64,000 nucleotides of DNA, taken from Epsilonproteobacteria bacterium tcs-49. GTDB taxonomy: Bacteria; Campylobacterota; Campylobacteria; Campylobacterales; Sulfurovaceae. The stretch's first letter is position 1; each line of letters starts with the position of its first letter. The stretch lies in assembly GCA_002049495.1 (NCBI GenBank), contig LLYS01000003.1, positions 62,001 through 126,000 on the forward strand, given 5' to 3'. Both the position numbers and the translations under genes were made by a program. The notes under the pieces were generated by a model, which made no database searches, had not been told where the DNA came from, and saw only the letters and a list, made by a program, of their open reading frames with translations. This document shows positions 6,479-43,413 of this stretch, in pieces.

Positions 6479-6486
6479 CTTGTATG

Positions 6487-14737: not shown

Positions 14738-15817
14738 CTACTCTCCAGTATTTTGTTTTCTATTAATGTAGTTCTCAACTATAATATCCCTATCCCCAAC
14801 TTTTGCAGGTTCATCAGGTATCATTTTTCTTGGATAATAACACAATTTACAAACTTTCATCGTTTTAAAACCATCTTTTTGGTTGTGAATATCTCTAATT
14901 TTATTGAGCCTTTCCCCGTGCCATATATCATAAATGGTTTCTTCATATGCATCCCCGATAATCTCTTCACCATCTTCATCATTGCTGCACATCATAACTT
15001 GTCCATCACTGCCTACCACTACTCTTTGATACAGTTGAGGGCAAGCAAAGTTTTCTTCGTAAACTATATCACTGTCTTTTCGTAGATAGTCTATCAGCGG
15101 GTTATAAGATACAAGGTCTACTAGTGGCGCTATAGTTTCGTAGTACTTTGTAGGATTTGGTCTGATCGCTGGCCAAATACCTTGTACTTTAATGGTAGGC
15201 TTCACTAAGTTATTGTCATCTTTATACTTTTTTATCTTCTCTAGCCTTCTTATAGTATCTTCAAATTTCAGTGGTTTTCTTATTTTATCATACTCTTCAT
15301 CAACTCCATCTATAGATATTGTTATCCAATCAATCCCCGCATCAACACATTTCTTGAAAAAATCAAGCTCTAAATTACCACCATGGGTAAGAGTGGAAAC
15401 TTCTTTTAGTCCTTTGTCTTTTGCGTACTTAATACAGTCAATAAAATTTTTGTGAAGTGTTGCTTCCCCTCTGAGACTAAGCCTTAAAGCAAAAACTTTT
15501 CCTGATATTTCATCAACTATTTTTTTGAAAAGTTCAAAATCCATAAAGCCTTTTTTGACTTTATTTTTAAACTCATCTGTTATTGTATAACACATAGGAC
15601 ATTTTAGATTACAAGCTGAAGCTAGCTCTAGGTCAACTAAAAGAGGGTACTCTAAGACTTCTCTTTTTTTAGGCATCTCAACCCACTTTTGTCTATAGTC
15701 TTTGTACTCATCTTCCCAGCCTATAGCCATTTTTTTAGAAAACTCTTTGGTTCTTTCAACTGTATCAAGTTCAAAATGGCCTTTATTGACCGGTATATAT
15801 TTTTCTTCACTATCCAT
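14738..15817 (-). CDS. Radical SAM protein with SPASM-type C-terminus
   Basis: 359 residues. The radical SAM cluster is C69, C73 and C76 in ACNLKCPMC, with DWITISIDG as the following strand. The C-terminal third has ACPQLYQR, MMCSNDEDG and CKLC cysteines, as in SPASM domains holding extra iron-sulfur clusters. These enzymes modify peptides, sugars or lipids by radical chemistry. It lies between a sugar methyltransferase and a sulfotransferase, so a glycan modification such as deoxygenation, epimerisation or dehydrogenation is plausible. Confidence 0.85.
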   Translation of the reverse strand: MDSEEKYIPVNKGHFELDTVERTKEFSKKMAIGWEDEYKDYRQKWVEMPKKREVLEYPLLVDLELASACNLKCPMCYTITDEFKNKVKKGFMDFELFKKIVDEISGKVFALRLSLRGEATLHKNFIDCIKYAKDKGLKEVSTLTHGGNLELDFFKKCVDAGIDWITISIDGVDEEYDKIRKPLKFEDTIRRLEKIKKYKDDNNLVKPTIKVQGIWPAIRPNPTKYYETIAPLVDLVSYNPLIDYLRKDSDIVYEENFACPQLYQRVVVGSDGQVMMCSNDEDGEEIIGDAYEETIYDIWHGERLNKIRDIHNQKDGFKTMKVCKLCYYPRKMIPDEPAKVGDRDIIVENYINRKQNTGE

Positions 15818-17919: not shown

Positions 17920-19219
17920 CTGTAACCTTTATCACGGTATTTTTTTCCTCCAGGATTTTCACCTCCTCATACAGCATCTCTATGGGTACTCCTATTTTTT
18001 GACTGATCTCATGCAAGCTCGCTTTCCCGTCCATGTAAAACAGGCACCAAAGCCTCATATCAAGCGCGGAGACACTGCTCCCCGGCAGTATCGCCCCTCC
18101 GGTTTTCGGATAGAGGTCGTGCTTGCTCAGCATCACTTCACAATTGGGATAGAGGTTTTGATAGGTAATGTTTCTGTCCATCTTTTCCAAAAGCTGCAGA
18201 TAAAGATTGACGCTTCTGTTCAAATTTTCCGCCGTTACGAACGTTAGATCATCCAGCGAGTTGTGATAGCCCTCATATTCGTAATACTTGTCTTTACTGA
18301 TGGTCGTGCAGTTTATACGAAATCCCTGTGAACTATACTGGCGCTCGTCGCTGCCATGAATATCGAAGGGATAGGTGCAATACTCTATTCCGTTTTCCTT
18401 AAACACCTCCTCTACCATCGCATTGAGAAAATGCTCCTGCTGCCACGTCTGCTTATAACCGAATTTCCCCGGTCCCCCGCAAGTGGTCAATACCAAGCCG
18501 GCTTTGATCTTTTGCATCGCCTTCTCATTGTTTGCACAATATGAAATAGCCCCTATGGTCTCCGGGACGAAAATGATACGGTAGCTGTGTTCCAAACTTT
18601 CACGCTTTTGCAAAAGCTCCCTGGCAATTATCGCGGTCGCTACGACTCCGCTTAAGCTGTCGTTGGCCATAGAGGGGTGGCAGATATAGCAAGAAAGCAG
18701 ATACTCCTCACTGCTTTTTCCCTCTATTTTCAACTCCCCGACGCTCAAAGCCCCCTCGCTAAACGCAGCGTCTATATAGACTTCATACTCCTCTTCGTCG
18801 TTAAAATACCGCATATAATCATCGTAACTTAAGCAAAACCCCCAGTTACGGTCATAGTAGCTTGTTCGGTAGGGGATCGCTTCAGGCAGGTCAGGCAGAT
18901 AGTGCAGATGCTCTTTGAGTTTGGAAAACCTCATCTTTTCATGGACGGGCGCGGAGTAGCTGACCACGTGCAGGTTGGATTCTTGAAAATCGACCACCTT
19001 TTCACCCTTGGAGTTTTTGATCCACGCATCGGCGATATGCCACTCCTGCGGTATCTGCCAGTCATACACCTGCTGTCCCGAAGGATACTCTATGATATCA
19101 AGCGGGACGATCTCTTGCAGTATCCGCAGCGTTTCGCGGTTCCCCTCTCCCGTTATGCTTCTGGTTATGGGAAAGAGTCGTTTTAGATATTTATCTATCT
19201 CCGCACGGCAATCTACCAT
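17912..19219 (-). CDS. DUF4910 aminopeptidase-like protein
   Basis: 435 residues. N-terminal LFPITRSITGEGNRETL, GQQVYDWQIP and later YICHPSMANDSLSGV are hallmarks of the DUF4910 aminopeptidase-like domain, which has an M28-type zinc peptidase fold. A winged-helix-like tail follows after about residue 360 (MRLWCLFYMDGKASLHEI). It overlaps the NeuB-like gene by 7 bases. Family members occur often in surface-glycan loci; removal of an amino-acid or acyl substituent from a sugar is a possible role, but no activity is proven to my knowledge. Confidence 0.78.
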   Translation of the reverse strand: MVDCRAEIDKYLKRLFPITRSITGEGNRETLRILQEIVPLDIIEYPSGQQVYDWQIPQEWHIADAWIKNSKGEKVVDFQESNLHVVSYSAPVHEKMRFSKLKEHLHYLPDLPEAIPYRTSYYDRNWGFCLSYDDYMRYFNDEEEYEVYIDAAFSEGALSVGELKIEGKSSEEYLLSCYICHPSMANDSLSGVVATAIIARELLQKRESLEHSYRIIFVPETIGAISYCANNEKAMQKIKAGLVLTTCGGPGKFGYKQTWQQEHFLNAMVEEVFKENGIEYCTYPFDIHGSDERQYSSQGFRINCTTISKDKYYEYEGYHNSLDDLTFVTAENLNRSVNLYLQLLEKMDRNITYQNLYPNCEVMLSKHDLYPKTGGAILPGSSVSALDMRLWCLFYMDGKASLHEISQKIGVPIEMLYEEVKILEEKNTVIKVTDG

Positions 19220-20274
19220 TCAAACATACTCCACTTTATCACGTCGTCTTCCTCGATATCACGTACGGCGGTTTTGCCCAAAAGCTCATCGATGAATTTC
19301 GGGCTGACTCCATGCGCCGGTCTTTTAAACGTCAAGTCTTCCCGCTCAATCACTTTGCCTGCGGGGATCCCTTTGGCCGCGACCAGGCTGCGCCTTGCAT
19401 TATCCCGTGATACCTTTTCATCCTCCAGCGCTTCTACTTTGAAACTTCCCAGGATTTCAAAGGTGCGTCGGAGATTTTCCCTCCACAGCAGCAGATCGTT
19501 TTTATCCATCGCATGGTAGTGATCATTACCCGGCAGGGTTTTATCGTGGGTAAAGTGTTTTTCTATGATGACGCTGCCCAGTAAAGTCGCCATTTCACAC
19601 ACCTTCATATCCTGCGGAAGCGTATGATCGCTGTAACCGATAATCTTGTCGGGAAACGCTTTTTTCAACCCCGTGATCATCCCCAGGTTCGCGTTCTCAT
19701 CCGGAGTCGGATAGTTCAGTACGCAGTGCAGCAGTGCCAGCGGATTCCCCGCTTTTTCTATCCAGCTGACGGCTTCTTGTATCTCATGCAGCTCACTTGC
19801 CCCCGTTGAGAGGATAATGGGTTTGCCGAAACCGCAGATATATTCGATAAAAGGTTTATTGGTCAAATCACTTGAAGAGATTTTAAACACATCCATCATT
19901 TCGTTGAGGAAGGTGGCGGATTCTATGTCAAAAGGCGTACTCATAAATTCAATCCCCATACTGTCGCAGTACCGTTTCAACTCCTCCATCTCGCCTTTCC
20001 AGAATTTATCATGCTTGGTAAAAAGCTCATACTGCGTTTTTGTGGGTTCTTTGGACGTATCCCAGTACGCGGGAGAATCCTTCGAAGCGATAGTATCGGC
20101 TTTGTAGGTTTGAAACTTGATCGCATCCGCACCCCCCTCTTTCGCTTCATCCACAAGTCTTTTTGCCGTATCCATGCAACCTTCGTGATTAACCCCCGCT
20201 TCAGCGATGATATAGGGAGGGACCAGCTTTGCCTCACACGGATTCGTGTTTTCAAATAGTTGTTTAATCTTCAT
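19213..20274 (-). CDS. NeuB-family nonulosonate synthase (sialic/legionaminic/pseudaminic type)
   Basis: 353 residues from the ATG at 20274, chosen because GGAGAG sits just upstream; a TTG 12 bases earlier is inside that ribosome-binding site. Motifs are YIIAEAGVNHEG (21-32), DAIKFQTYKAD, FDIESATFL, SDHT and a C-terminal SAF (antifreeze-like) domain from about 290. It condenses phosphoenolpyruvate with a six-carbon N-acyl amino sugar to a nine-carbon ulosonic acid. Neighbouring PseG-like and SpsF-like genes support a legionaminate- or pseudaminate-like product. Which one cannot be fixed from sequence alone. Confidence 0.92.
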   Translation of the reverse strand: MKIKQLFENTNPCEAKLVPPYIIAEAGVNHEGCMDTAKRLVDEAKEGGADAIKFQTYKADTIASKDSPAYWDTSKEPTKTQYELFTKHDKFWKGEMEELKRYCDSMGIEFMSTPFDIESATFLNEMMDVFKISSSDLTNKPFIEYICGFGKPIILSTGASELHEIQEAVSWIEKAGNPLALLHCVLNYPTPDENANLGMITGLKKAFPDKIIGYSDHTLPQDMKVCEMATLLGSVIIEKHFTHDKTLPGNDHYHAMDKNDLLLWRENLRRTFEILGSFKVEALEDEKVSRDNARRSLVAAKGIPAGKVIEREDLTFKRPAHGVSPKFIDELLGKTAVRDIEEDDVIKWSMFEW

Positions 20275-20953
20275 CGTTCTCTCCAAATATTTTGATCAAT
20301 TGTTTTGACGGCGTCTCCATCGCTATATCGCGCATCGCCAATTTATAGTAATCTTCAAAAGTGTCCACGTCAAACCTCATCTCCGGATGGTGCAGCTCTT
20401 TTTCCGGCGGATCAAAAGTTTTTATCGCAAATCTTTGGCTATTATCCCAGATATAGGAAAAACAGTGCTCTTTATGCACATCTTCACGGACATTTTCATA
20501 CAGGTAGCGCAACGTTTCAACGCTCACGATCTCCGCTCCCAGTCCGTCGGGATACCGGTTGCCTCTGGGGATATGATTAAATGCGTAATCGCATCTGTTT
20601 TGTTCGTAAAATTCTATCAGGTTATCGATCTCATGTCCATCTACCAAGGGGTTGTCCGCGCACACCCTGACGATACGTGTCGCCCGGTGACGCACAGCCG
20701 CCCCGTAGAACCGCTTGAGTACGTTGTTTTCCTCGCCGCGATATACGGGAAAGCCCAAAGATGCGGCATACTTTTCCAAAATATCGTTTTCTCTCTCGCG
20801 GGAGGTGGCCAAAACAACCTCATCTGCAAGCTTAGCGGTTGCGGCCCTTTGAAGCACCCATTCGATAACAGGTTTGCCGTGCAGGGAAAGCATCATTTTA
20901 TTGGGCAGTCTGGTCGAGCCCATTCTGGCTTGAATCAATATAACCGTTTTCAA
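20264..20953 (-). CDS. SpsF-like cytidylyltransferase
   Basis: 229 residues. ILIQARMGSTRLP at 5-17 is the nucleotidyltransferase signature of the SpsF/CMP-Kdo-synthetase-like group, followed by DEVVLATS and RVCADNPLVD. The start is TTG at 20953, overlapping the stop of the upstream fusion gene as TTGA, with GGAG upstream. It probably supplies the CMP-activation step for the nonulosonate made by the NeuB-like enzyme, or forms another cytidylyl sugar. Confidence 0.82.
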   Translation of the reverse strand: MKTVILIQARMGSTRLPNKMMLSLHGKPVIEWVLQRAATAKLADEVVLATSRERENDILEKYAASLGFPVYRGEENNVLKRFYGAAVRHRATRIVRVCADNPLVDGHEIDNLIEFYEQNRCDYAFNHIPRGNRYPDGLGAEIVSVETLRYLYENVREDVHKEHCFSYIWDNSQRFAIKTFDPPEKELHHPEMRFDVDTFEDYYKLAMRDIAMETPSKQLIKIFGENDED

Positions 20954-22539
20954 TCCAAAAGCTCCATAATTTTTTGTACCACCCGTTTTTTATTTTCCCG
21001 AAAAGCATACTTTTTGATATTGAGAAACAGTAAATAGCGATAATCGGCATCGTTTAAAAGCTTTTCAAAGGCTTTCGTGATAGCTTCCGGCGTTGTCTTT
21101 GGGTCATATACGCCGAGATTGATAAAGCCCCTTTCCAAAGATGCGAAGCTGTGTGTTCCCTCCCTGTCGTGATGCGAAACGACGATGGAGGGAATATTCA
21201 TATCCGCCAATTCATACACCGTTCGCCCGTTTGCGCTCAAAGCGATCTGTGTTTTTTCCATGATTTTCGATATCACCCCGCTTGCGTAGGTAAACTCTAT
21301 CTTGTCATATTCAAGCTTGTCAATATACTGCTCCAGCTCCTTTTTAAACAGGTAACCCGATCCGCATACCACATATATCTTTATCTCTCTTTTTTTCGCT
21401 ATCTCGATGATCGATTGCAACGTCACCATGGTCAGGTTGTTTTGGTCCGTCCCCCCGAACGTCAAAAGAATCGAGCTTATATTTTCCATAAATTCATGGG
21501 GCTGGGCATCATCAAACTCATCTCTGAGCGTTGTAAACCTGTGCCCCCACATATAGTGTTCACCCTCGAGCTGCGGGGTTTCATAGAGTTCGTTAAATAC
21601 GATATCGGCATACCCGGAACCGCTGCCCAGGTCCTCAAAGTTAACCACCCGTACGCCTCGCTCTTTTAACACCTTTACATCTGCTTTTTGCGTATTTAAA
21701 ACGTCATTGACGACCATATCGGGTTTTAACTCCACTATCGTTTGCAGTGGATCCGGGGTGGCGATCACCTTGTAGTCTTTGGCCGCGATTCTCTCAACGG
21801 CTATCTCATACACGCTGTCGCACACAAAGATCACTTCGTGATCACTGATCTCATGGGCCAGTGCCAGGGACCTGTATATATGCCCCATCCCTATCTCCGT
21901 ACTTCCTATGACGTGAAAGACTATTCGCTTTCTTTGCAGCACTTTTTCGCACACCCACCAATCCTGATAACTTTCGATCTCGATGGATTTTTCACTTTCG
22001 ATGACAAAGGGTGTGATCTTTTGCATGTTTTTGTATTTCCTGTTGAGGAAAACGAACGCTTTCAACTCTTCAAAGTAGTCGCTTCCTCCGACTTTTTCAA
22101 GCACACCGCCCTCTTTTTTGAGCAGATTGCTCGTATCTTTTTTGACCGAAAGCAGCACCTGTTCTCTATCCTCCCGGAAAGCGTTATACGCATTTTGCAA
22201 AATATCGATACCGATAAGCGTCGCATTCGCCCGGTAGATCAAAAGGTCCTCTTGGTCCCTGTCTTTTACGATATTTATAACGGTTTCGATAATATTTTCG
22301 GAGGTCAGGGAAAGTGTCGTACTTTTGTAGTGGGCGACTCCGTTGCGCTCTGATATAAGGCTTATCTCCTCCGAGTCGGTAACAACAAGAATATTTGCGT
22401 TGCGCACTAGCTGTTTTGAAGTATCTATCGCTCGCTGGATCAACGTGGTACCGTTGAGCTTTTTAATAAGCTGATCGGGTATTACCGCATTTTTCTTAAT
22501 CGCCGTAATTATGATCAGTAACCGGGAATTATCTTCCAC
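20950..22539 (-). CDS. Fusion: degenerate CMP-synthetase-like domain plus PseG-like domain
   Basis: 529 residues from the GTG at 22539, chosen because GGAGG lies 7 bases upstream; a TTG at 22557 is further up with no such site. Residues ~5-205 resemble acylneuraminate cytidylyltransferases but lack the usual ARxGSxR loop, which is replaced by TAIKKNAVIPDQ. Residues ~206-529 resemble PseG, the UDP-sugar hydrolase of pseudaminate synthesis, with GMGHIYRS near 220, LLTFGGTDQNN and SANGRTVYELA. It heads the nonulosonate unit. Likely role: release of the amino-deoxy sugar from UDP before the NeuB-like condensation. Confidence 0.75.
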   Translation of the reverse strand: MEDNSRLLIIITAIKKNAVIPDQLIKKLNGTTLIQRAIDTSKQLVRNANILVVTDSEEISLISERNGVAHYKSTTLSLTSENIIETVINIVKDRDQEDLLIYRANATLIGIDILQNAYNAFREDREQVLLSVKKDTSNLLKKEGGVLEKVGGSDYFEELKAFVFLNRKYKNMQKITPFVIESEKSIEIESYQDWWVCEKVLQRKRIVFHVIGSTEIGMGHIYRSLALAHEISDHEVIFVCDSVYEIAVERIAAKDYKVIATPDPLQTIVELKPDMVVNDVLNTQKADVKVLKERGVRVVNFEDLGSGSGYADIVFNELYETPQLEGEHYMWGHRFTTLRDEFDDAQPHEFMENISSILLTFGGTDQNNLTMVTLQSIIEIAKKREIKIYVVCGSGYLFKKELEQYIDKLEYDKIEFTYASGVISKIMEKTQIALSANGRTVYELADMNIPSIVVSHHDREGTHSFASLERGFINLGVYDPKTTPEAITKAFEKLLNDADYRYLLFLNIKKYAFRENKKRVVQKIMELLD

Positions 22540-22668
22540 TAATTTTCCTCCGTCCAAAGTATGCGCGGATTACTCAAGGGCCCTGCCGTTTTTTCTGCTA
22601 GATACACCAACGTTAAACCTTTATGCGCACACTTACTGGTAATAAAAAAGTTTCTCATAAATAAAATA

Positions 22669-27574: not shown

Positions 27575-28506
27575 ATCTTCATTACCCCTTGTTCAAAGTT
27601 CACGAGTTCTTGCAAACCCAAAAGTTTTCGCATCTTGCCGTTGTCGCACAGGGAACCGTACACGTCCCCTTTTCTCGCAGGCTCATACTTGGGCGGCTGC
27701 GTATGCCCGTATTTTTTTGCGATCGTGGCAAAAATATCGTTTACCGTCGTTTTTCGGCCCGTGCCTATGCAGATCACCTCTCCCGAAATATCATCCGTGT
27801 TCATAGCGGCGATATTTGCTTTTACCACGTCCTGTACATAGACAAAGTCCCTGTACTGTGTACCGTCTCCGTATATCGTAGGGGTTTTTCCCTGCCGCAG
27901 CATGGTATCGAAAATGGAGATTACCCCGCTGTATTCGCTGTCTGCCCTCTGCCCCGGACCGTAAACGTTGAAGTATCTCAAAGCAACCGTCTCAACACCG
28001 TAAGTCGAGCTATAAAGCTTCAGATACCGTTCCGCCATCATCTTCTCATACCCATACGGCGAGACGGGTTTTTCGGGGGAATTTTCATTTTTGGGCATAC
28101 TTTTTTCATCTCCGTATATGGCCGCACTGCTTGAGAAAACAACCCTTTTCGCTCCGGCTTGCCTCGCCGCTTCCAAAAGATTCAGCGTTCCCTGAAGATT
28201 AACCCTCCCCGTACGCAGCGGATCGGCCATGGACTCCTGTACCGATACTATAGCCGCCAAATGGTAAATATGCGTAATCGCGTTTTCGGCGATAAACGCA
28301 TAAAGCCGCTCATAATCGCATATATCGATCTTTTGAAAGATAAACCGATCGGAAAATGTTTCCGAAAACTCTTCGATATTCTCCAAACATCCACCGGACA
28401 TATCATCTAAGGCATACACGGTATCTTCGCTAAAGTGCAACATCTCTTTGACCAGATGTGAACCGATGAATCCCGCCGCACCCGTTATGAGAATGTTTTT
28501 ACCCAT
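27571..28506 (-). CDS. GalE/WbpP-like NAD-dependent sugar-nucleotide epimerase
   Basis: 311 residues, extended SDR. GAAGFIG at 9-15, HLAAIVSVQES near 82-92, SSSAAIYGD, and Y151xxxK155 in SPYGYEK are the expected epimerase landmarks. It probably interconverts UDP-hexoses or UDP-hexuronates at carbon 4. UDP-glucose (GalU) and UDP-glucuronate (Ugd) made upstream in the locus are candidate substrates. It overlaps the ABC transporter gene by 8 bases. Confidence 0.87.
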   Translation of the reverse strand: MGKNILITGAAGFIGSHLVKEMLHFSEDTVYALDDMSGGCLENIEEFSETFSDRFIFQKIDICDYERLYAFIAENAITHIYHLAAIVSVQESMADPLRTGRVNLQGTLNLLEAARQAGAKRVVFSSSAAIYGDEKSMPKNENSPEKPVSPYGYEKMMAERYLKLYSSTYGVETVALRYFNVYGPGQRADSEYSGVISIFDTMLRQGKTPTIYGDGTQYRDFVYVQDVVKANIAAMNTDDISGEVICIGTGRKTTVNDIFATIAKKYGHTQPPKYEPARKGDVYGSLCDNGKMRKLLGLQELVNFEQGVMKI

Positions 28507-30229
28507 ACTCTACGACTCTTCCGTTTTCAAGCTTAATGATCTTATCGCATTTTTCCACCGTGCTTAATCGGTGTGCGATCATGATGATCGTCCTTTTACC
28601 GCTCATGGCGTCTATCGCTTTCATCACTTCGGCCTCCGTGCTGTTGTCCAGCGCGCTGGTCGCCTCATCCAGCACCAGCACTTCCGGCTCATGGTACAGC
28701 GCCCTTGCGATCCCAAGCCGCTGCCTTTGCCCTCCGGAGAGCCGCACGCCCCTTTCTCCGATGATCGTTTCATAACCGTTTTCCAAACCGCTTACAAACT
28801 CGTGCACCTGCGCCATCTTAGCTACCTTCTCCACCTGTGCACTATCTATCTGCTCCTTGTCGATACCAAAAGCGATGTTACTCGCTATCGTATCATCAGC
28901 AAGAAAAATACTTTGAGGCACATACCCGATACTGTTTTGCCACTGGCGTATATTGGAACCATCCAGCACCGTTGCGTCAACGATCAGTTTTCCTGAAGAG
29001 GGGGTAAGAAGTCCGAGTATCACATCCACGAAAGTACTTTTACCGGCACCCGTCGTCCCGATTACCCCTACCGTGCTGTTTGCTCCGATCGCCAAACTCA
29101 CATCCGTCAAGGCAGGGGTTTGGGTATTTTTATAATAAAAAGATATGTTTTCCAGCTTTAAGTTGTGCTTTAAACTCAATCGCGTAAAATCGTTTCTGAT
29201 ATCCGCCTTCTCTTCTTTTCCAAGGTCCTGCAGCACTGCATCAAGTGCGGCGTTACCAAAGCGCAGCATGGACAGCGAGGCGTATATTGTATTGACTGCG
29301 GGTTTAAGCTTTAGCGCCCCCAACGCGTACAATCCCAGCACCGGCAGCAGTCTCCCCAGGTCGCTCCCGTCGCTCATCAGCGCATACATGGCAATCGCGA
29401 GCAAGGAACCAAAGGCTATCACCTCTACAAAAAACTTCGGCACTTGTGAAAGGGTTTGATTAATCGATTGATACCGTGAAAAATCAACCGAAGGGGTTTT
29501 GAAACTATCCAGATAAACTTCTTCACGCCCTAAAACTTTTAAATCCTTTATCCCTCCGATAGTTTCTGAAACGATCTTAAACCTTTGTGAATTGGCTTTG
29601 GCGCGCTCTTTTCCGATGTGAGAAACATATTTTCTCACCGTCGTGTACATCAGAATATAGAACCCTCCAAAGATTCCCGCCAGAATCGCGGCGAGCATAG
29701 GGTCAACCGCCACTAAAAAGATGATCAGAGCCAATGTGAGAGTACTGTACGTTACCAGTCTCAGTGCAGGCTGCAAAACCTGATTGATCATCAAATCCAC
29801 TTCGGAAAGAATCGTTTTTGAGATATCGCTACTGTTACGCGCCAAAAAATAGTCATAGGGTTGGTGAAGGTACTTACGCAGCAGCTTTTTGCCGATGCTG
29901 TGGCGCCGCATGTTTGAAAATTTAAAAAGTGCGTAATAGGTAAAACTTTTAACCGCGGCACTGACCAGCAGCGTCACTAACGCGAATACTCCTAAAAATA
30001 TCAAAAATGAATTCTTATCGCTGAAACCGCCGAAACCGTACACGGCGGATAAATACCTGTTTGTCTCAAGCATTTCCGGTTTGCCCAGTACGGAAAGAAA
30101 CGGCATGATCGACCCCACGCCCAAAACTTCAAAAAACGCCATGACGATCATGAGCAGAGATAACAGCAGCGCTCTTTTACGCTCATGGGCGGACAGCAGC
30201 TGCCACAGTTTTTTATAGGTTTGAATCAT
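28499..30229 (-). CDS. ABC transporter, fused permease and ATPase, PglK-like glycolipid flippase
   Basis: 576 residues: six-helix membrane domain (about 1-310) and an ATPase with Walker A GTTGAGKS (391-398), LSGGQ (497-501) and Walker B LVLDE (518-522). Overall layout and the IGYVPQ/IARALY.EPEVLVLDEATSALD blocks resemble Campylobacter PglK, which flips undecaprenyl-linked oligosaccharide for N-glycosylation. MsbA-type lipid A export is the alternative. Its place in a glycan operon, 8 kb from pglB, favours a glycolipid flippase. Confidence 0.8.
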   Translation of the reverse strand: MIQTYKKLWQLLSAHERKRALLLSLLMIVMAFFEVLGVGSIMPFLSVLGKPEMLETNRYLSAVYGFGGFSDKNSFLIFLGVFALVTLLVSAAVKSFTYYALFKFSNMRRHSIGKKLLRKYLHQPYDYFLARNSSDISKTILSEVDLMINQVLQPALRLVTYSTLTLALIIFLVAVDPMLAAILAGIFGGFYILMYTTVRKYVSHIGKERAKANSQRFKIVSETIGGIKDLKVLGREEVYLDSFKTPSVDFSRYQSINQTLSQVPKFFVEVIAFGSLLAIAMYALMSDGSDLGRLLPVLGLYALGALKLKPAVNTIYASLSMLRFGNAALDAVLQDLGKEEKADIRNDFTRLSLKHNLKLENISFYYKNTQTPALTDVSLAIGANSTVGVIGTTGAGKSTFVDVILGLLTPSSGKLIVDATVLDGSNIRQWQNSIGYVPQSIFLADDTIASNIAFGIDKEQIDSAQVEKVAKMAQVHEFVSGLENGYETIIGERGVRLSGGQRQRLGIARALYHEPEVLVLDEATSALDNSTEAEVMKAIDAMSGKRTIIMIAHRLSTVEKCDKIIKLENGRVVEYG

Positions 30230-30265: not shown

Positions 30266-31453
30266 TTACCATTTGACCCCGCGGAAAATCACGTCTTTAC
30301 GGATATTGCTTTTATATTTCGCCACGGTTTTAAACATCCCCTCCATCACTTCGGGAGTCAGGTAGTGCGGTTCCACGCCGATCTCTTGCAACCCCTGGTA
30401 AACGGGATTGTAGTAGTGCTCCTCTTTTTCTTTTCGCGGGTTTTCTATATTTTTGATCTCGACTCCATAGCCAAGCTTGTCGCCTACTGTTTTGGTCAAT
30501 TGGGCAAGTTCATTGACGCTGAAGGTTTCCATGATCTGGTTAAAAATCCGCAGTTCACCCTTTTTCGCTGGGGTTCGCACGGAGGCGCCCACGCACTGCA
30601 GCGTATCTTTGATATTGAGGTATCCTCTGGTCTGTCCGCCCTGACCGTATACCGTCAAAGGATAACCGACAACCGCCTGGGTGATGAATCTGTTGACGAT
30701 GGTACCGAAGATTTCATCGTAGTTAAAAATGGTTTTTAACCGATCATCGATCAAAGATTCCTCCGTTTCAATCCCGTAAACGGGACCCTGCATCAAGTCC
30801 GTAGCCTTCAGATCCCACATGCGCACGCCGAACCAGAAAAGGTCGGTATCCATGATTTTCGTGGTATGGTAAAGCGAACTCGCCTGTCTGGGATAGAGAA
30901 ATTTATCTTTTCTGCCCTTGTGTTCTATCTCAAGCCACCCCTCTTCGATATCTATCTCGGGCGTTCCGTATTCGCCCATGGTTCCTATCTTTATCATATG
31001 GGTATCGGGGCTGAGATCTTTTAGCGCAAACATGAGGTTGTTGGTAACAAGCAGATTGTTCGAAAGGGTTTTGTTGGCGTATTTGTAATTGAGCAGCGAA
31101 TAGGGCGCAGAGGGCTGCTCCGCATAGTGGATTACCGTTTCGGGTGCTCCCGTGAACTTTTTATCGACGCACCACTGGTACTGCACTCTCCCGTCAAAAA
31201 GACTCCGCATCACCTCCGGATCGGTCAGATCACCGATAACGACCTTGATCTCTTTTCCGGTTTTTTCATACCAGATTTTCGCCCGCTCGATAAGCGTGGG
31301 CACGCCGTAGAGCATCCCTACGTCAAGCTCCGTACATGCGTTTCTGCGCAGATAGTTGTCCACGACCGTTACCTCGTGACCTTCATTTGAAAACTTCATC
31401 GCCGTAGGCCAGCCGAGGTATCCGTCTCCTCCAAGTACTAATATATGAGCCAT
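30266..31453 (-). CDS. UDP-sulfoquinovose synthase (SQD1/Agl3 family)
   Basis: 395 residues. Compared by memory with plant SQD1: the nucleotide loop GGDGYLGW (8-15), EQPSAPYSL (112-120), KIGTMGEYGTP with T158, and catalytic Y195xxxK199 all match. So do DLMQGPVYG, VYGQGGQTRGYL, FNQIMETFSVNELA and EEHYYNP. The enzyme joins sulfite to UDP-glucose through a 4-keto-glucose-5-ene intermediate, giving UDP-sulfoquinovose. Directly upstream are genes able to yield sulfite (CysH and a persulfide dioxygenase). Plants and phototrophs use it for sulfolipid; Sulfolobus Agl3 uses it for N-glycans. Confidence 0.9.
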   Translation of the reverse strand: MAHILVLGGDGYLGWPTAMKFSNEGHEVTVVDNYLRRNACTELDVGMLYGVPTLIERAKIWYEKTGKEIKVVIGDLTDPEVMRSLFDGRVQYQWCVDKKFTGAPETVIHYAEQPSAPYSLLNYKYANKTLSNNLLVTNNLMFALKDLSPDTHMIKIGTMGEYGTPEIDIEEGWLEIEHKGRKDKFLYPRQASSLYHTTKIMDTDLFWFGVRMWDLKATDLMQGPVYGIETEESLIDDRLKTIFNYDEIFGTIVNRFITQAVVGYPLTVYGQGGQTRGYLNIKDTLQCVGASVRTPAKKGELRIFNQIMETFSVNELAQLTKTVGDKLGYGVEIKNIENPRKEKEEHYYNPVYQGLQEIGVEPHYLTPEVMEGMFKTVAKYKSNIRKDVIFRGVKW

Positions 31454-31479
31454 TATTATCCCTTCTTTACGTTATTTTA

Positions 31480-32790
31480 TTATATCGTGTAATATATATT
31501 TTCTTGCTTTTGCACGCTATTGAGGTATGAGATAGCCGCTATGGATTTAAACCCGAATTCACACTCGAAAGTATACGGTTTTGTTCGGTCAAAGGCGTAG
31601 TCTTTAATTGCGCTCAGTCCCAATCGTATATGCCTTTCTCCTTCGGTTTGACAATTTTTTGCAAAGGAGATGAAGACCATATTATCATCTATCATCTCTT
31701 TTTTGACAATATTCAAACTTTCAACGGGAAAGCCCGCCTTGACCCACGCATTGATATCGGTATTGATGATATGGGTAATCCTGTCAATCCCGACCCTTGC
31801 CAGCTTTATCTGCACCTCTTTAAGCATCTGGTTCTTATGTTCCACCCTGGGAAGCAGCAATACATACTCCTTCTCCTGATCCAGCAGCGATCCGGCTATC
31901 AGCGAAATGTTGGCGTTATAGTAGATATTGATGGAACCTTTGATATGTGCCGTCGCGAAGGAGTAGGGATCACGCAGGTCGATAATCGTGTACTTCTGCG
32001 GATCTTTTGCCACCAAAGCGGGATCCAACAGGTTTATACTGTTGGCGGAGGGGATTTTGGCCGGCCCCTGCAGGTTCACAAGACTCATCTTCTTGAAATG
32101 TTCCGGCGTTTCTATAACCATCGCATCAAGGTTGTTTTTATACTTCTGCTCATTTTGTGCGGCTAAAGCGAAGCTTTGGTTTGTCTTTTTTTCGATCCCG
32201 ACGGTACTCATGAAATGCGACTTGAGATCCTTGCCGCAGAACGTACCGCCCATATGCGAAGGCAGTACGATAATGTCGTCGGAAAGCCCGTGCAGCTTCA
32301 CCGCACTTTGATAGGATTGTTCCAGCAGCTGTTCTTTCAACTCCTCTCCAAGCAGATCGGGACGCCCTATGTCGCCTATGAAAAGAAAATCCCCGGTAAA
32401 GACGATCTTTTCCACACCCTCTTCTTGCAGCAGAAAGCTCAGACAAAAGGGAGTGTGTCCCGGGGTTTCTAGCACTTTAAAGTTCAAGCTGCCCACAGGT
32501 AGTTCCGCTCCCTCTTTGGCCTTGATGGTTTCAAACTCGGCTGAAACATTGTGCGCGTACACGTTTTTTGCCCCGGTACTTTCGGCAAGGGCCGCGTGTC
32601 CCCCTACAAAATCGGCGTGGGGGTGGGTATTGAGGATATATTTCGGAATTAACCCGTATTGGTTGATATACTCTACATAATCACCGATATCCCGCTTAGG
32701 GTCGATTATACAGACCTCTTTGCTTTTCTCGCACCCTACGATATAGGAAACGTGGGCTAAGCCTTCATCTACAAAATGTTTCAGTATCAT
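31480..32790 (-). CDS. Persulfide dioxygenase-like metallo-beta-lactamase with inactive rhodanese domain
   Basis: 436 residues. N-terminal MBL domain: H56, H58 and D60 in THPHAD, H112 in TPGHT, D134 in FTGD and H179, as in ETHE1/CstB-type non-haem iron persulfide dioxygenases, which oxidise glutathione or protein persulfide to sulfite. A rhodanese domain follows (about 265-370; IIDLRDPYSFATAHIKGS), but the catalytic cysteine loop reads LLLPRVEHKN, so it is probably a non-catalytic domain. It ends 26 bases before the UDP-sulfoquinovose synthase gene, which consumes sulfite. Confidence 0.85.
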   Translation of the reverse strand: MILKHFVDEGLAHVSYIVGCEKSKEVCIIDPKRDIGDYVEYINQYGLIPKYILNTHPHADFVGGHAALAESTGAKNVYAHNVSAEFETIKAKEGAELPVGSLNFKVLETPGHTPFCLSFLLQEEGVEKIVFTGDFLFIGDIGRPDLLGEELKEQLLEQSYQSAVKLHGLSDDIIVLPSHMGGTFCGKDLKSHFMSTVGIEKKTNQSFALAAQNEQKYKNNLDAMVIETPEHFKKMSLVNLQGPAKIPSANSINLLDPALVAKDPQKYTIIDLRDPYSFATAHIKGSINIYYNANISLIAGSLLDQEKEYVLLLPRVEHKNQMLKEVQIKLARVGIDRITHIINTDINAWVKAGFPVESLNIVKKEMIDDNMVFISFAKNCQTEGERHIRLGLSAIKDYAFDRTKPYTFECEFGFKSIAAISYLNSVQKQENIYYTI

Positions 32791-32801
32791 CTCTATCCCT
32801 T

Positions 32802-33851
32802 TTACAATTCCAGGTTCTCAATTACCTTATGCTCTATGAGGTACTGTTTGATTTCAGCGACGCTCATGCACTTTTCGTTTGCGCTGATATAGGGGTTTGT
32901 CACCTTTTTGCTTGTTATATTTTCATAACTGTCGTAATCGATATCCTCATACATCGGTGGAATGGCCGGTTTCACCACAAACATATTGTCCAGCTCATAC
33001 GCTTTTGCCGTTTCCGGCACGGTCATCAACTCTTCATACAGCTTTTCCCCGGGTTTGGAACCGATAATTTCGATCTCGATCTCTTCGGGTTTTCTGCCAA
33101 ACTGCGGTGCGACGATCTCGATCATCGCCTGTGCCAGATCCGTAATCCTCATCACCGGCATCTTCGTCACGAACACCTCCCCGCCGATAGCCAGCTTTGA
33201 TGCCTCAAGCACCAGCGCAACCGCTTCTTCTATGGTCATGATAAAGCGGGTCATCTGTTCATCGGTGATCGTGATCTTTTTGCCGTCTCTTATCTGTTTG
33301 TAAAAAATGGGAGCTACGGAACCTTTGGAACCGATAACGTTTCCAAAGCGGGTACTGCTAAAAACGATATCCCTATTGCAACGGATATTCAGCGCCGAAC
33401 TCATCAGCCGCTCTCCCAAGAGTTTGGTCGTCCCCATTACATTCGTGGGATTGACCGCTTTGTCGCTGCTGGTATAGATCACCCGTTCGCACCGCTGTGA
33501 TTCAAGCGCAGCCTGGATGACGTTTGAGGTGCCGTCCGCGTTGGTTTTTACCGCATCCAGAGGGCTGACTTCGCTGATAATGACGTGTTTCATCGCCGCC
33601 GTATGCAAAATAATATCCACGTCTTTGCACAGATAGGTCAAGCTATTCAAATCCCGAATGTCACAGAAAAAACCGTTGTATCTTTTTTCTCCACGGTACT
33701 CGTCGTTGAGGAAAAACAGCGCGGCTTCGTTATTGTCAATCGCCTTGATCTCTTTGACGCCACACTCAAGAAGCTGCTTTATCAACTCTTTGCCGATCGT
33801 TCCCGCCGCGCCGGTGATCAACACCTTTTTATTATTGTATAAATCTTTCAC
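32802..33851 (-). CDS. FlaA1/PseB-type UDP-sugar 4,6-dehydratase
   Basis: 349 residues. Rossmann loop GAAGTIGKE (14-22), HTAAMKHV (83-90), SSDKAVNPTNVMGTTK (128-143) in which M139 takes the place of the usual tyrosine, and FGNVIGSKGSV. These are hallmarks of FlaA1, PseB and CapE, which dehydrate and sometimes epimerise UDP-GlcNAc. It may start the branch leading to the 2,4-diamino-trideoxy sugar needed by the NeuB/PseG-like genes, or make a bacillosamine-type precursor. It overlaps the GT2 gene by 4 bases. Confidence 0.88.
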   Translation of the reverse strand: MKDLYNNKKVLITGAAGTIGKELIKQLLECGVKEIKAIDNNEAALFFLNDEYRGEKRYNGFFCDIRDLNSLTYLCKDVDIILHTAAMKHVIISEVSPLDAVKTNADGTSNVIQAALESQRCERVIYTSSDKAVNPTNVMGTTKLLGERLMSSALNIRCNRDIVFSSTRFGNVIGSKGSVAPIFYKQIRDGKKITITDEQMTRFIMTIEEAVALVLEASKLAIGGEVFVTKMPVMRITDLAQAMIEIVAPQFGRKPEEIEIEIIGSKPGEKLYEELMTVPETAKAYELDNMFVVKPAIPPMYEDIDYDSYENITSKKVTNPYISANEKCMSVAEIKQYLIEHKVIENLEL

Positions 33852-34498
33852 GCCTTCACTCCAAATAATCTGTATTGTATATATGTTTTAACCACTATGA
33901 AAAACTGCGGCAGATGCTCCCACGCCACTCTTCTGGGTTTATCGACCACGGGAAGATCAACGGCGATTTCGCAGCTTCGCATCCCCTTTTGAAAGCACTC
34001 CAGGTGCAGCAATCCGCAGGTACACTTGCCCGAAAAGGACAACTGTTTGGCAAAACTTGCACGAATAGCTCTAAAACCCGTTCCCGCATCCTGTAATTTT
34101 TCCCCCGTGAAAACATTCGCCGTTTTCAGCAAAATCCGCTCGGAGAACCTTGCGATATTGGGTCTTTTGCCATATACGATATCGCACGTACCCTCCTTGA
34201 TCGGAGCGATCAGTTTATCGATATCTTCGGGTTTATGCTCTCCGTCGGCATCCATAGTTACGATTATATCCCCCCGAGCCGTGGCGATTCCTCTTTTTAC
34301 ACTATAGAGGTAGCCCCGGTTGGTACCGTTTTGTAAAAAGCGGACGCCCTTGTAAGCATCGGGATCAAGATAGCTGTTAACGGGAATTTCACTTCCGTCG
34401 TCAATCACGATAATATCCTGGTAACCGCCCAACTTGCCCAATACGTTCTCCAATCTCCCTTTTTCATTGTACACGGGGATAACGACCGAAACACTCAC
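33848..34498 (-). CDS. Family 2 glycosyltransferase, dolichol-phosphate-mannose-synthase-like
   Basis: About 216 residues from the GTG at 34498, which overlaps the CysH stop as GTGA; an alternative start at 34537 would give 229 residues. VVIPVYNEKG, IVIDDGS and TMDADGEHKPED give the GT-A donor site. There is no C-terminal membrane segment. Similar proteins transfer sugar from a nucleotide donor to polyprenyl phosphate or to a lipid-linked acceptor. Sitting between CysH and the dehydratase in the sulfoquinovose unit, it is the nearest candidate for adding sulfoquinovose, which is inference. Confidence 0.82.
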   Translation of the reverse strand: MSVSVVIPVYNEKGRLENVLGKLGGYQDIIVIDDGSEIPVNSYLDPDAYKGVRFLQNGTNRGYLYSVKRGIATARGDIIVTMDADGEHKPEDIDKLIAPIKEGTCDIVYGKRPNIARFSERILLKTANVFTGEKLQDAGTGFRAIRASFAKQLSFSGKCTCGLLHLECFQKGMRSCEIAVDLPVVDKPRRVAWEHLPQFFIVVKTYIQYRLFGVKA

Positions 34499-35133
34499 AG
34501 GTGCAATCCACACTCCGTTTTTGTCGTATCCGACCATCGTCCTTCCCTGCCGCTTCCCGCTTTCGTACAGGGTTCACAGCCGATACTTTCATAGCCCTGG
34601 TTAAACAAAGGGTGCAGCGGAAGATTTCGCTCATGGATATAGGTAAACACCTCTTGCGCACTCCACTCAAATACGGGAAGCACTTTGTAAATCCCTCTTT
34701 TGTCCCTTTGGATCGGACTCATCCCTTCTCTGACATTGCTTTGGTCTTTACGCAGGGCGCTGAACCAGCATTTAATATTGTTATTTTCCAGAAATTCGTC
34801 CAAAACGATGACTTTGTTATCCCGGCAACACCGTTCCACATCCTTAATTTCACCCCCTTTGTCCATATAGGCGGCTTTGTCCAGGTTGCTTTTCAAGCGG
34901 AGAAAAAAAAGATCTCTATACATATGCCGCAATCTTTGAAAATACTCCACGGTATCTTCAAACAAAAAGCCCGTGTCTACAAAAATCACCGGAATATTGC
35001 AGCGGGATCGGTGGATAAGGTCGATCAGCAACGATGCCGTTGCCCCGCAGGAAGTGGTAGCTATCGTTTGATTGTTGTATTTTTTATACCACTCCTGAAT
35101 TACCGACAGTGATTTTTCTACATTATCACTCAT
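34495..35133 (-). CDS. cysH: Phosphoadenylyl/adenylyl-sulfate reductase (assimilatory, [4Fe-4S] type)
   Basis: 212 residues from the ATG at 35133 (AAGAGG upstream). C102-C103 and C186xxC189 form the APS-reductase iron-sulfur cluster motif, GREGRW follows, and the C-terminal ECGLH holds the catalytic cysteine C208. It reduces APS (or PAPS) to sulfite with thioredoxin. Usually it serves cysteine synthesis, yet here it lies four genes upstream of UDP-sulfoquinovose synthase with no sulfite reductase nearby, so it may supply sulfite for the sulfonated sugar. It overlaps the Nudix gene by 8 bases. Confidence 0.92.
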   Translation of the reverse strand: MSDNVEKSLSVIQEWYKKYNNQTIATTSCGATASLLIDLIHRSRCNIPVIFVDTGFLFEDTVEYFQRLRHMYRDLFFLRLKSNLDKAAYMDKGGEIKDVERCCRDNKVIVLDEFLENNNIKCWFSALRKDQSNVREGMSPIQRDKRGIYKVLPVFEWSAQEVFTYIHERNLPLHPLFNQGYESIGCEPCTKAGSGREGRWSDTTKTECGLHL

Positions 35134-38465: not shown

Positions 38466-40622
38466 TCATATTTTCAATTTATATATCTTTGCCCACGGTG
38501 AAAGTATTATCGGTTCGAAAAGCGTTTTATCGTAATTTTCCAAAATATAGAGTTGGAAATACAGCGAATTGTAGGTTTGTTCATCCACGATAACGAAGGT
38601 GTTGTAACTTTTTAAGAATAGGACGTTCAACCCCTGGGCATGGAACCGCTGCACCTTCGTTTGCAGACCGCTTTGTTCATACCGGGTCTGCACAAACCGC
38701 TTTACGGGTACGCTGGAATCGCCTATTTGCAAAACCGCTTCTTTTTTATCCATCTTGAGATTTTTCGCAAAATATAAAAACTGCCGATCCTGCTTGACCT
38801 GCTGCGTCATGTAAAAGAACGGCCGTTCATAGGATTTACCCGTCATCAGGTCCAGGTTGCTGAACAATCCGACGGTCGGGTAGATACTGAGCATCCGATA
38901 GGGCAGATACAGGTAGATATCGCGCGTCTTCTCGGGGAGCTTGATACGCTCCAGCTGCAGGCTTTGCAAAAAGAGGTTGGTATCTTTAAACCCGTGGTTT
39001 AGCGTCATCTGCTCTATCGTGGGCGCGATGGGTTCCCTTTGCTCTTCGGGCAGATCCCTGTTTTTCTCCTTGCGGGCATAATCCCTTTCGGTATATTCCA
39101 CCTCCAGACGCGCCATCTGCGCCGCGGCGAGCTGCGACTGCGTTAAAACAAAGCTGACCGGAAAATTTGCGCTCCCCCTGTGCTTTCCTCCGTCGATCAG
39201 GGTTTTCACATCGCTGTAGTAGCGCACGGGATAGCCGTAATCCCACCATGTCACGACATAATCTTCCCGCTGTGCCATGTTGCCGAACTTTTCAAGCAGC
39301 TGTACCTCCTGCTTGTTAAAGACCGGACCGATGTGGCTGTTATACCGTTTCACATGCAAAAGATTGGGCAGCAATATCAAAATACTCAATCCCCCCGCCG
39401 CGATATAGCGCAAGGAGCGGTGCCGCATATACGACGTTGTTTGCATAATCAAAAAACCGATCCCCAAAGCCATGATCGGTACGGCGTAGATGGTAAAGCG
39501 CAACCCGCTGTTCAGGGCCAAAAACCCAAGCCCGACCATCGGCAGCGCCAGCAGCATAATGCGATGTTTATAACATAGCCACACATACCCCGCAAGAGAA
39601 AGAACAAAAGTGATCTGATGCCCGCTGATACGGTTGGCAAAAAGTTCAAAGGAGATATTTCCGGCTTCACGGATCGTTTGCATTACGGTAAAAAAGTGCA
39701 GCCGCAAATCCTCCTGTGAAGTCACGGTCGTATTTTGAAACACGTAACCTTGCAGTTTGTTCCAAATGGGATCGAACCCTCCCGTTATAAAAAACGCCGC
39801 AACCGACACGCCGAAAAACAGATAAAGGTACTTTCCCGCTTTTTCTCTCGTAAACAGCAGATAGAGGACGATAACGAGACCCAGGCGGATCAACCCGTCT
39901 GTCATAAGCGTAGCAAGCAGCATCAACGTTATAAGTTCTATTTCATACCTGATGGAGTGTTTTTTATACACTCTAAACCCCGCATACAGCAAAATGAACA
40001 CGATAAACGCAAACTCCAAAGCATAGCTTTGGGGATACCACCAGCGATAAACCAAAATATCCAGTGCGGCGATAAGTTGATACATACGAAGCCGTGTCTG
40101 ATACGCCCCCACTAAAGACCACAGCAGAACCGTAGGCAGCACGATATTGAGCATATCGGTATCGTAATACCCCGCCATGGTACGGTTATAATAACTCCAC
40201 GCGATGGAGGCTAACAGCGCGGCGACAAACCCGCTGGCCGTCTCTTGTATATCCCGTGCCAAAAGGATAATGGGAACAACGATCAAAGAACCGAGAAAAA
40301 CCGGCATATAAAAGATAATCGCTTCAAAGTCAAAGGGCAAGACCTGAGCAACAAATGCCGTCAGCTGTGAAGCTGCCTGCCTCACCGGAGAGCGGTCATA
40401 CTCCTGATGCCCCCCCTGCAAAATATCTCTGGCTCCCTCCGCCCAGAAATACCCGTCGTTGGTATTGATCATAAAGCTGCCGTTATGACGGTAACTTTCC
40501 ATATCACCGTTTTGGTATACCCAAAGCAGTCGGACCCCTACGGAAAAAAGATAAGCCAGCAGCAGAAGCACAAGTACCGTTTTATGCTGCTGTATCCATT
40601 TCATATACTTTGTATTTGCCAT
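38466..40622 (-). CDS. pglB: Oligosaccharyltransferase PglB/STT3
   Basis: 718 residues: about 13 membrane helices (1-430) then a periplasmic domain. All known functional motifs of bacterial PglB are visible: D56 in NDGYFWAEGARD, D154 and D156 in YYDTDM, E319 in the TIRE motif, R375, WWDYG at 459-463 and the MxxI motif M577/I580. The C-terminus NYDKTLFE...KIYKLKI also matches Campylobacter PglB. It transfers lipid-linked glycan to asparagine in exported proteins. Placement among manC, ugd and galU ties it to this glycan locus. Confidence 0.95.
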   Translation of the reverse strand: MANTKYMKWIQQHKTVLVLLLLAYLFSVGVRLLWVYQNGDMESYRHNGSFMINTNDGYFWAEGARDILQGGHQEYDRSPVRQAASQLTAFVAQVLPFDFEAIIFYMPVFLGSLIVVPIILLARDIQETASGFVAALLASIAWSYYNRTMAGYYDTDMLNIVLPTVLLWSLVGAYQTRLRMYQLIAALDILVYRWWYPQSYALEFAFIVFILLYAGFRVYKKHSIRYEIELITLMLLATLMTDGLIRLGLVIVLYLLFTREKAGKYLYLFFGVSVAAFFITGGFDPIWNKLQGYVFQNTTVTSQEDLRLHFFTVMQTIREAGNISFELFANRISGHQITFVLSLAGYVWLCYKHRIMLLALPMVGLGFLALNSGLRFTIYAVPIMALGIGFLIMQTTSYMRHRSLRYIAAGGLSILILLPNLLHVKRYNSHIGPVFNKQEVQLLEKFGNMAQREDYVVTWWDYGYPVRYYSDVKTLIDGGKHRGSANFPVSFVLTQSQLAAAQMARLEVEYTERDYARKEKNRDLPEEQREPIAPTIEQMTLNHGFKDTNLFLQSLQLERIKLPEKTRDIYLYLPYRMLSIYPTVGLFSNLDLMTGKSYERPFFYMTQQVKQDRQFLYFAKNLKMDKKEAVLQIGDSSVPVKRFVQTRYEQSGLQTKVQRFHAQGLNVLFLKSYNTFVIVDEQTYNSLYFQLYILENYDKTLFEPIILSPWAKIYKLKI

Positions 40623-42022: not shown

Positions 42023-42596
42023 AATTTTCCTTTCGCATACTTAAAGCAAACTCTTTCAAAAAAACCAAAAAAATCGCTACCGCGAGAGCCGCCGCAAACG
42101 CCACTTCAACGATCAACTTTCGTTTTGGCGTGTTGATCGGCTTGTCTGAGACGCTGATTTCGGTTACGGGCTTGGTCATGGAAAATATTTGAAAACCCCG
42201 GAGTTTCCCTTCGTGGCGCTCCAAAATAAAATCCATACCGCTTTGCAGTACTGACTTGATCCGTTCCGGTTCCCGTCCCATCGCGCTAAGTGTGAGCAAA
42301 GAGCGGCTGCCCTTTGGACTTTCGGCGCTGATTGGAAACTTCTTTTCCACGATCACAGCCAGATCGTCGGCATTGTCCAAAGCGCGCGCGCCGAACTGTT
42401 CTCCGTATATCTCTCCGATTTCGACAAGTACCGAACCTTTATATACGGGAGGAGGGTTCTTGCTCCATGCATAAAGCGCGGCAGCGATAGTCACCGCCGC
42501 GGTAAAAAGCACAATAAACACTTTATGCCTCCACAGCATTTCAAACACCGCTTTCAAATCGACCTCATCTTCTTGAATATGCCGCCTATGCTCCAT
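42012..42596 (-). CDS. Wzz/chain-length-determinant-like inner-membrane protein
   Basis: 194 residues. [27 protein letters not shown] near the N-terminus is the classical Wzz start, with a membrane helix at about 30-48; a second helix lies at about 165-183. The periplasmic part between them is short (about 115 residues) compared with typical Wzz (about 250), so it is a reduced member or an accessory to a polymerase or exporter. It overlaps galU by 11 bases. Confidence 0.75.
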
Positions 42597-43413
42597 CGAT
42601 TGCCTTTCCGTAAAAATAGTTCGTCGCTTCCACGAAGCCCTCTATACTGCCGCAGTCAAAGCGCTTGCCCTCAAAGCGGTACGCCAGCACTTTTCCCCCT
42701 TTGGCCTGCTGTAAAAGCGCGTCGGTGATCTGGATCTCCCCGCCCTTTCCCGGCTTCGTTTTTTCAAGGATATCAAAAATATCGGGGGTCAGGATGTAGC
42801 GGCCGATGATCGCCAGATTCGACGGTGCCTCCTCGGGCTCGGGTTTTTCGACCATATCGTCGATTTCAAAAAGCCCCTTTTCGATCTCTTTGCCCGCGAT
42901 GACGCCGTATCTGTTGGTCTGATCTTTGGGCACCTCTTCGATAGCGACAATAGAGCAGCGGTACCTTTCATACACGCGCATCATCTGCCGCAATACGCTT
43001 TCCCCCCTATTATCGCACAGGTCATCGGCCAGCACGACGCCGAAAGCTTCCTCGCCGATAAGTGTGCGCCCCGTCAGGATCGCGTGTCCGAGCCCCTTCA
43101 TCTGCTTTTGTCTGGTGTAGCTGAAGGTACAGCTTTCGATCAATTCGCGGATTTTGGTCAGGTATCCCTCTTTGCTCGTTCCTTTGATCTGGTGTTCCAA
43201 CTCGTAGCTGATATCAAAATGATCCTCGATCGCCCTCTTTCCCCGTCCGGTGACGATCGCCATGGTTTCCATCCCGGCACTCACCGCCTCTTCGACGCCG
43301 TACTGGATCAGCGGCTTATTAACCACCGGCAGCATCTCTTTAGGCATCGCTTTGGTCGCGGGCAGAAACCTCGTCCCGTATCCGGCGGCGGGAAATAAAC
43401 ACTTCTTGATCAA
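42586..43413 (-). CDS. galU: UTP-glucose-1-phosphate uridylyltransferase
   Basis: 275 residues. FPAAGYGTRFLPATKAMPKEMLPVVNKP spans the nucleotide-binding start (landmark, residues 7-34), and EEVPKDQTNRYGVI, MVEKPEPEEAPSNLAIIGRYI and GGEIQITDAL are diagnostic. It makes UDP-glucose, the precursor both for Ugd and for the UDP-sulfoquinovose synthase encoded further down the locus. It is the first gene of the glycan locus. Confidence 0.97.
   Translation of the reverse strand: MIKKCLFPAAGYGTRFLPATKAMPKEMLPVVNKPLIQYGVEEAVSAGMETMAIVTGRGKRAIEDHFDISYELEHQIKGTSKEGYLTKIRELIESCTFSYTRQKQMKGLGHAILTGRTLIGEEAFGVVLADDLCDNRGESVLRQMMRVYERYRCSIVAIEEVPKDQTNRYGVIAGKEIEKGLFEIDDMVEKPEPEEAPSNLAIIGRYILTPDIFDILEKTKPGKGGEIQITDALLQQAKGGKVLAYRFEGKRFDCGSIEGFVEATNYFYGKAIDGA

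Follow-up and report, generated by a model that had tools for sequence, protein, structure and literature searches.

The unit described here occupies bases 30266-35133 of a 64,000-nucleotide stretch (the window; bases 62001-126000 of contig 11) from the 2.22 Mb, 99.9% complete genome of Epsilonproteobacteria bacterium tcs-49. Its genes all lie on the minus strand and either overlap or stand 11 to 26 bases apart (Table 1). The initial annotation had described a tightly packed unit encoding an SQD1 homolog, a persulfide dioxygenase (PDO)-like protein and CysH, and these genes and their coordinates were confirmed. Its gene list left out the CapD-like gene, which proved to be the constant partner of the SQD1 clade found here and which, with a GT2 glycosyltransferase gene, lies between the genes for the PDO-rhodanese protein and CysH. 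The oligosaccharyltransferase gene and two sulfotransferase-like genes of the window were likewise missing from that list.

Table 1. Genes of the CapD-SQD1 unit and of the glycan locus around it, in window coordinates.
Feature	Coordinates	Strand	Supporting match
PglK-like ABC flippase	28499-30229	minus	NF050066 391 bits, under cut-off 1000
SQD1-family short-chain dehydrogenase/reductase (SDR), Pro101 subfamily; proposed UDP-sugar sulfonate synthase	30266-31453	minus	1qrr/1i24, E ~5e-113
Metallo-beta-lactamase (MBL) + rhodanese protein, persulfide dioxygenase/sulfurtransferase-like; proposed sulfite source	31480-32790	minus	PF00753, PF00581; 3tp9/3r2u
Short dehydratase of PF02719, CapD/PseB-like; constant companion of Pro101-clade SQD1	32802-33851	minus	PF02719, E 1e-91
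GT2 glycosyltransferase, polyprenyl-phosphate hexose transferase-like	33848-34537	minus	PF00535; common to G414 cassette
CysH, adenosine 5'-phosphosulfate (APS)-reductase type, CC/CxxC/C cysteines; proposed sulfite source	34495-35133	minus	PF01507; NF002537 181.6 bits
STT3/PglB-type oligosaccharyltransferase	38466-40622	minus	PF21436, PF02516; NF050801 628 bits, under cut-off 1300
GalU, UDP-glucose supply	42586-43413	minus	TIGR01099, over cut-off

The closest solved structure to the SQD1 homolog in the PDB is Arabidopsis SQD1. The protein carries the [ST]MG ... YxxxK fingerprint common to SQD1, SqdB and Agl3, which a review gives as that of UDP-sulfoquinovose synthases (PMC8987622), and T158, Y195 and K199, singled out when the sequence was first read, are all present (GTMGEYG from 157, YHTTK from 195). 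Equivalents of Agl3 His95, Met145, Glu147, Tyr148, Tyr182 and Lys186 are likewise retained, as is that of His183. The homolog likely works as an SQD1 module. Archaeal Agl3 also needs Arg101, the alanine mutant being inactive (PMC4388408). Position 101 is Arg in all 9 reference rows of our alignment (SQD1, Sinorhizobium meliloti SqdB, an Arg-type paralog from Okeania and six others) and Pro in the window protein and in 75 of 75 rows of its clade, which also shows specific changes beside the active-site motifs: F97Y, P178A, L184T, Met at 208 and Pro at 211 (V/I211P). Strict membership among the UDP-sulfoquinovose synthases is not established, because a residue essential in Agl3 was looked for and is missing. 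The window protein scores 408.8 bits against the NF041015 equivalog, whose cut-off is 575; we dropped the conclusion that it is not a sulfoquinovose synthase on this ground, since the Arg-type Okeania paralog also falls short, at 444 bits. The designation "clear UDP-sulfoquinovose synthase" is not supported in that form. Given the separate subfamily, the replacement of Arg101, the altered active-site surroundings and the pairing with CapD, it should be weakened to an SQD1-family protein of the Pro101 subfamily, whose gene is with few exceptions accompanied by that of a CapD-like dehydratase.

A scan of one genome per species across 84,980 species returned 74 loci with an SQD1 homolog. The scan used peptide patterns taken from the window's own protein and is biased toward close relatives, and none of the patterns contained position 101; Pro occupies that position in every locus but one (L102). 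In a tree of 48 rows the Pro form makes up one side of a single branch (SH-aLRT 100), and the clade spans several bacterial phyla. A haloarchaeal homolog (L116) on a very long branch has Pro as well while lying outside the clade, so that Pro could be the older state. The genomes of Okeania and Erythrobacter encode an Arg-type homolog alongside the Pro-type one, and two contigs from a viral collection (L139, L140) encode an SQD1 homolog with 38% identity to that of the window.

Of the 73 Pro-form loci, 66 have a CapD-like gene no more than 3.5 kb from SQD1; the locus of G414 (L133), a second genome of the phylum, was left out of this count. Four of the seven loci lacking this neighbor have the SQD1 gene less than 220 bases from a contig edge (L055, L059, L073, L103); among the 69 assessable loci, then, it is missing only in L081, L092 and L105. 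The CapD partners that we sampled form one clade relative to three WbpM-type dehydratases, most of them share the motif SSDKAVNPTNVMG, and the nearest NCBIfam models of the window's CapD-like protein are PseB and FnlA. Glycosyltransferases and the remaining genes vary from one cassette locus to the next, and such a constant pair among variable glycosyltransferases points to a shared nucleotide-sugar pathway and not to a shared repeat unit. Epimerase-family genes occur in about 30 of the loci. Within a phylum sample of 397 genomes, only G414 besides the window genome has a close SQD1 match (78%); there the genes for GT2 (54%), CapD (84%) and SQD1 follow one another without interruption, in a locus of the capsule type. 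What is conserved, then, is a cassette of two genes, CapD and SQD1.

In the window genome the PDO-rhodanese gene stands between CapD and SQD1, the same two genes that touch in G414, and relative to that arrangement it is an alien gene inserted into the cassette. Its product was initially described as persulfide dioxygenase-like, in agreement with the MBL and rhodanese domains that we find; the closest PDB relatives align over residues 1-312, and a rhodanese-type active-site cysteine loop, CEFGFKS, starts at 410. No match was found at E<=1e-50 among 239 other genomes of the phylum. Plasmid relatives of this protein, and of the window CysH, are only ~30-35% matches.

All of the cysteines first assigned to CysH (C102/C103, C186/C189 and C208) are present, in the CC, CxxC and ECGLH motifs of the APS-type iron-sulfur enzymes; the protein exceeds the NF002537 cut-off of 154 bits and does not reach that of the APS subfamily TIGR02055. 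Only two PF01507 proteins occur in the genome, CysD and this one, which makes it the sole CysH. About 50 kb from the unit, the contig carries a sulfate activation operon for CysN, CysD, CysC and a CysQ-like protein, with a permease (L107, 36000-50000; 4942-9460, minus strand); beside it lies another glycan locus, which encodes a WbpM-like dehydratase. A search for the sulfite reductase family PF01077 gave no match at E 0.01 in the genome. Among the 397 genomes, 89 have CysH and 160 have PF01077, and 88 of the 89 with CysH have PF01077 too, the window genome being the sole exception; its CysH scores lowest, as the most divergent, of the 89. With PF01077 absent, sulfite made by CysH would have no recognized route of that type to cysteine. 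Uptake of sulfide would serve an organism exposed to it.

Sulfite genes also turn up in the cassettes of other lineages. In Erythrobacter, a Rhodobacteraceae metagenome-assembled genome and Psychromarinibacter sediminicola (L084), CysH lies with the epimerase, SQD1 and CapD genes and another CysH is encoded elsewhere, while Salibaculum and Roseovarius have no cassette CysH and one CysH each. The three alphaproteobacterial cassette proteins form a clade of their own to which the window CysH is not close, and this separate placement indicates that CysH was recruited at least twice. In Arhodomonas, CysH is ~9 kb from SQD1 and another copy is present, and on a Pelagovum plasmid CysH directly follows an Arg-type SQD1 homolog. 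Altogether CysH is found within 10 kb in 4 of 73 loci, against ~0.4 expected by chance (a rough estimate that assumes one CysH per 4 Mb). Some cassettes (L037 of Gilvimarinus agarilyticus, L047, L052, L053, L058, L079, L093) have APS kinase or ATP sulfurylase genes close by. These were considered as evidence for sulfite and set aside because L047 and L053, where this was checked, also hold sulfotransferases. In the Cocleimonas flava locus L047, two genes for APS kinase and one for a DHH-type phosphoesterase-like protein (5304-8911) lie just upstream of the CapD-SQD1-epimerase cassette, and a sulfotransferase is encoded further downstream. The dedicated sulfite supply proposed at the outset is well supported: CysH is alone in a genome devoid of PF01077, the PDO gene lies inside the cassette, and cassettes of other lineages independently hold a second CysH. 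This independent recurrence gives the idea better support than it had from the window alone.

The setting of the SQD1 homolog is that of a glycan, as had been thought, rather than a sulfolipid. The initial annotation saw no SqdX/SqdD transferase nearby, which holds for SqdD: homologs of S. meliloti SqdD and of the Okeania sqdB neighbors are absent from the window plus 40 kb of contig (104 kb), and sqdX was not searched for genome-wide. GalU, put forward as the source of UDP-glucose, was confirmed at the locus. The oligosaccharyltransferase matches the STT3-PglB core domain and is well under the PglB equivalog cut-off; together with the PglK-like flippase it makes a protein-linked glycan plausible, and the same two proteins make an origin in the Campylobacterota plausible. 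Wzz and NeuB-family genes indicate that the locus encodes other glycan routes too, and a stretch at 19213-22557 (minus strand) encodes a NeuB-family synthase together with SpsF, which is cytidylyltransferase-like, and an SpsG-like fusion protein, a pathway of the nonulosonic-acid type. Two sulfotransferase-domain genes (1514-2320 and 13910-14734, minus strand; PF00685, one also PF13469) belong to this large locus, so that sulfation of the glycan may occur in addition to sulfonation. A radical S-adenosylmethionine/SPASM protein is encoded directly beside one of them (14738-15817, minus strand).

Gene identities, the Pro101 clade, the CapD pairing, the missing sulfite reductase and the repeated recruitment of CysH were obtained by computation. 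On this basis we think it reasonably probable that the CapD-SQD1 cassette at 30266-35133 makes a UDP-activated C6-sulfonate sugar for a surface or protein-linked glycan, and that this lineage has added sulfite sources of its own to the cassette. CysD/CysN of the genome would supply APS, from which CysH would form sulfite by reduction; persulfide or thiosulfate would yield further sulfite through the PDO-rhodanese protein. The SQD1-type enzyme is predicted to oxidize a UDP-sugar at C4, form a 5,6-ene, add sulfite at C6 and reduce C4 again, with the CapD-like dehydratase presumably acting in the same pathway. After its transfer the sugar, sulfoquinovose or a close relative such as an amino sugar or C4 epimer, would be flipped by the PglK-like transporter, and STT3 might place it on protein. 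Given the changed pocket and the fixed CapD partner, the product may be a related sulfo-sugar instead of sulfoquinovose itself; candidates from gene content include, besides sulfoquinovose, sulfofucose (via the epimerase genes) and an amino sugar (via CapD). More tentatively, we propose that CapD and Pro101-SQD1 constitute an undescribed, horizontally spread pathway for bacterial capsules, O-antigens and protein glycans. Its product would be a sulfonated nucleotide sugar that is new and differs from plain sulfoquinovose, and dedicated enzymes that generate sulfite (CysH, persulfide dioxygenase) would have been joined to it repeatedly in different lineages. In the literature searched, which covered few subscription journals, we found no publication describing a CapD-SQD1 cassette and nothing relevant on sulfonated O-antigen or capsule sugars, on sulfoquinovosamine or on SQD1 in Campylobacterota.

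Several observations weigh against a sulfonated product. The position of Agl3 Arg101 is taken by Pro114 in the window protein, sulfite genes are missing from the surrounding 10 kb at most cassette loci, and the sulfotransferase-like genes of the window mean that sulfate activation may serve sulfation instead. The same literature reports no such sugar in a bacterial glycan. Loss of Arg101 could signify another substrate, another way of holding sulfite or no use of sulfite at all. If sulfite is not used, the Pro101 clade would comprise dehydratases or epimerases that help to make some unusual sugar, with sulfur genes close by for other reasons; the Pro of the remote haloarchaeal homolog fits this too, as does the majority of loci devoid of sulfite genes. 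We consider it quite unlikely, however, since CysH entered the cassette in two unrelated events, the alphaproteobacteria keep a second, housekeeping CysH, and the window genome has no sulfite reductase. It could also be argued that CysH is an ordinary assimilatory enzyme, that the PDO-rhodanese protein detoxifies sulfide and that their place in a glycan operon is accidental. CysH is, after all, the only one in the genome, and CysD, CysN, CysC and CysQ are encoded on the same contig, but a housekeeping role is disfavored by the lack of PF01077 in a nearly complete genome when all 88 other CysH-bearing genomes have it, and by the lowest score of 89; the PDO gene, for its part, is lodged inside a conserved pair. 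This explanation appears very improbable.

Other alternatives retain sulfite and differ in the role given to CapD. The window enzyme might be a plain UDP-sulfoquinovose synthase acting on UDP-glucose, with the CapD-like gene contributing to a different residue of that glycan, a deoxyamino sugar. The SQD1 fingerprint, GalU-supplied UDP-glucose and the sulfite genes close by would all suit this, but we find it doubtful in view of Pro for Arg101 in all clade members, a CapD partner that stays nearly constant while glycosyltransferases differ between loci, and genomes that carry both the Arg and Pro forms. Alternatively, as one form of the C6-sulfonate proposal, the work may be split: the CapD-like enzyme would produce a 4-keto or 5,6-ene UDP-GlcNAc, to which the SQD1-like enzyme would add sulfite, yielding a UDP-6-sulfo amino sugar. 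PF02719 enzymes are UDP-GlcNAc dehydratases, the pairing of the two genes is constant, and Pen/Pal offers an analogous two-enzyme precedent through a UDP-GlcNAc 5,6-ene (PMC8987622). Since ordinary 4,6-dehydratases carry the CapD motif too, we regard this particular route as unlikely, and we retain the broader reading, a CapD-SQD1 cassette for a C6-sulfonate sugar.

Sulfonated sugars are best known from the sulfolipid of plants and cyanobacteria and from a few archaeal N-glycans. The recurrence of the cassette core in distant bacteria suggests that many of them may put a sugar with a carbon-sulfur bond into their coats rather than their lipids. If so, surface glycans in several bacterial phyla would carry such sugars, forming an unrecognized pool in the sulfur cycle and food for sulfosugar degraders, and giving coats a charged chemistry beyond removal by sulfatases. 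According to a paper of 2025, it is not known by which pathway sulfofucose is synthesized (PMC12421959). The cassette further offers a testable answer to where the sulfite for such a sugar originates.

With Arabidopsis SQD1 and S. meliloti SqdB the window protein shares its fold family, the TMG...YxxxK fingerprint and the equivalents of His95, Glu147, Tyr148, Tyr182, His183 and Lys186, and its identity to bacterial SqdB-type proteins is ~36-41%; it differs in having Pro for Arg101 and in F97Y, P178A, L184T and V/I211P, and its gene lies in a glycan locus with CapD instead of sqdD or sqdX. Agl3 of Sulfolobus acidocaldarius, which serves the sulfoquinovose of archaeal N-glycans, resembles the proposed system in its use for glycan and not lipid and in the STT3-type transferase of the genome; unlike the window enzyme it has Arg101, and it is archaeal, with no CapD or CysH partner described (PMC4388408). 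The fused persulfide dioxygenase-rhodanese proteins 3tp9 and 3r2u match the window protein in domain order, metal-ligand motifs and central cysteine region (residues 1-312), whereas the window gene sits in a glycan cassette and not in a sulfide-detoxification operon. Pen/Pal, which makes a pseudaminic acid precursor in Bacillus, employs two SDRs, one of them CapD/PseB-like, that act one after the other through a 5,6-ene nucleotide sugar (PMC8987622); it uses no sulfite and a different second enzyme, and the likeness is no more than an analogy.

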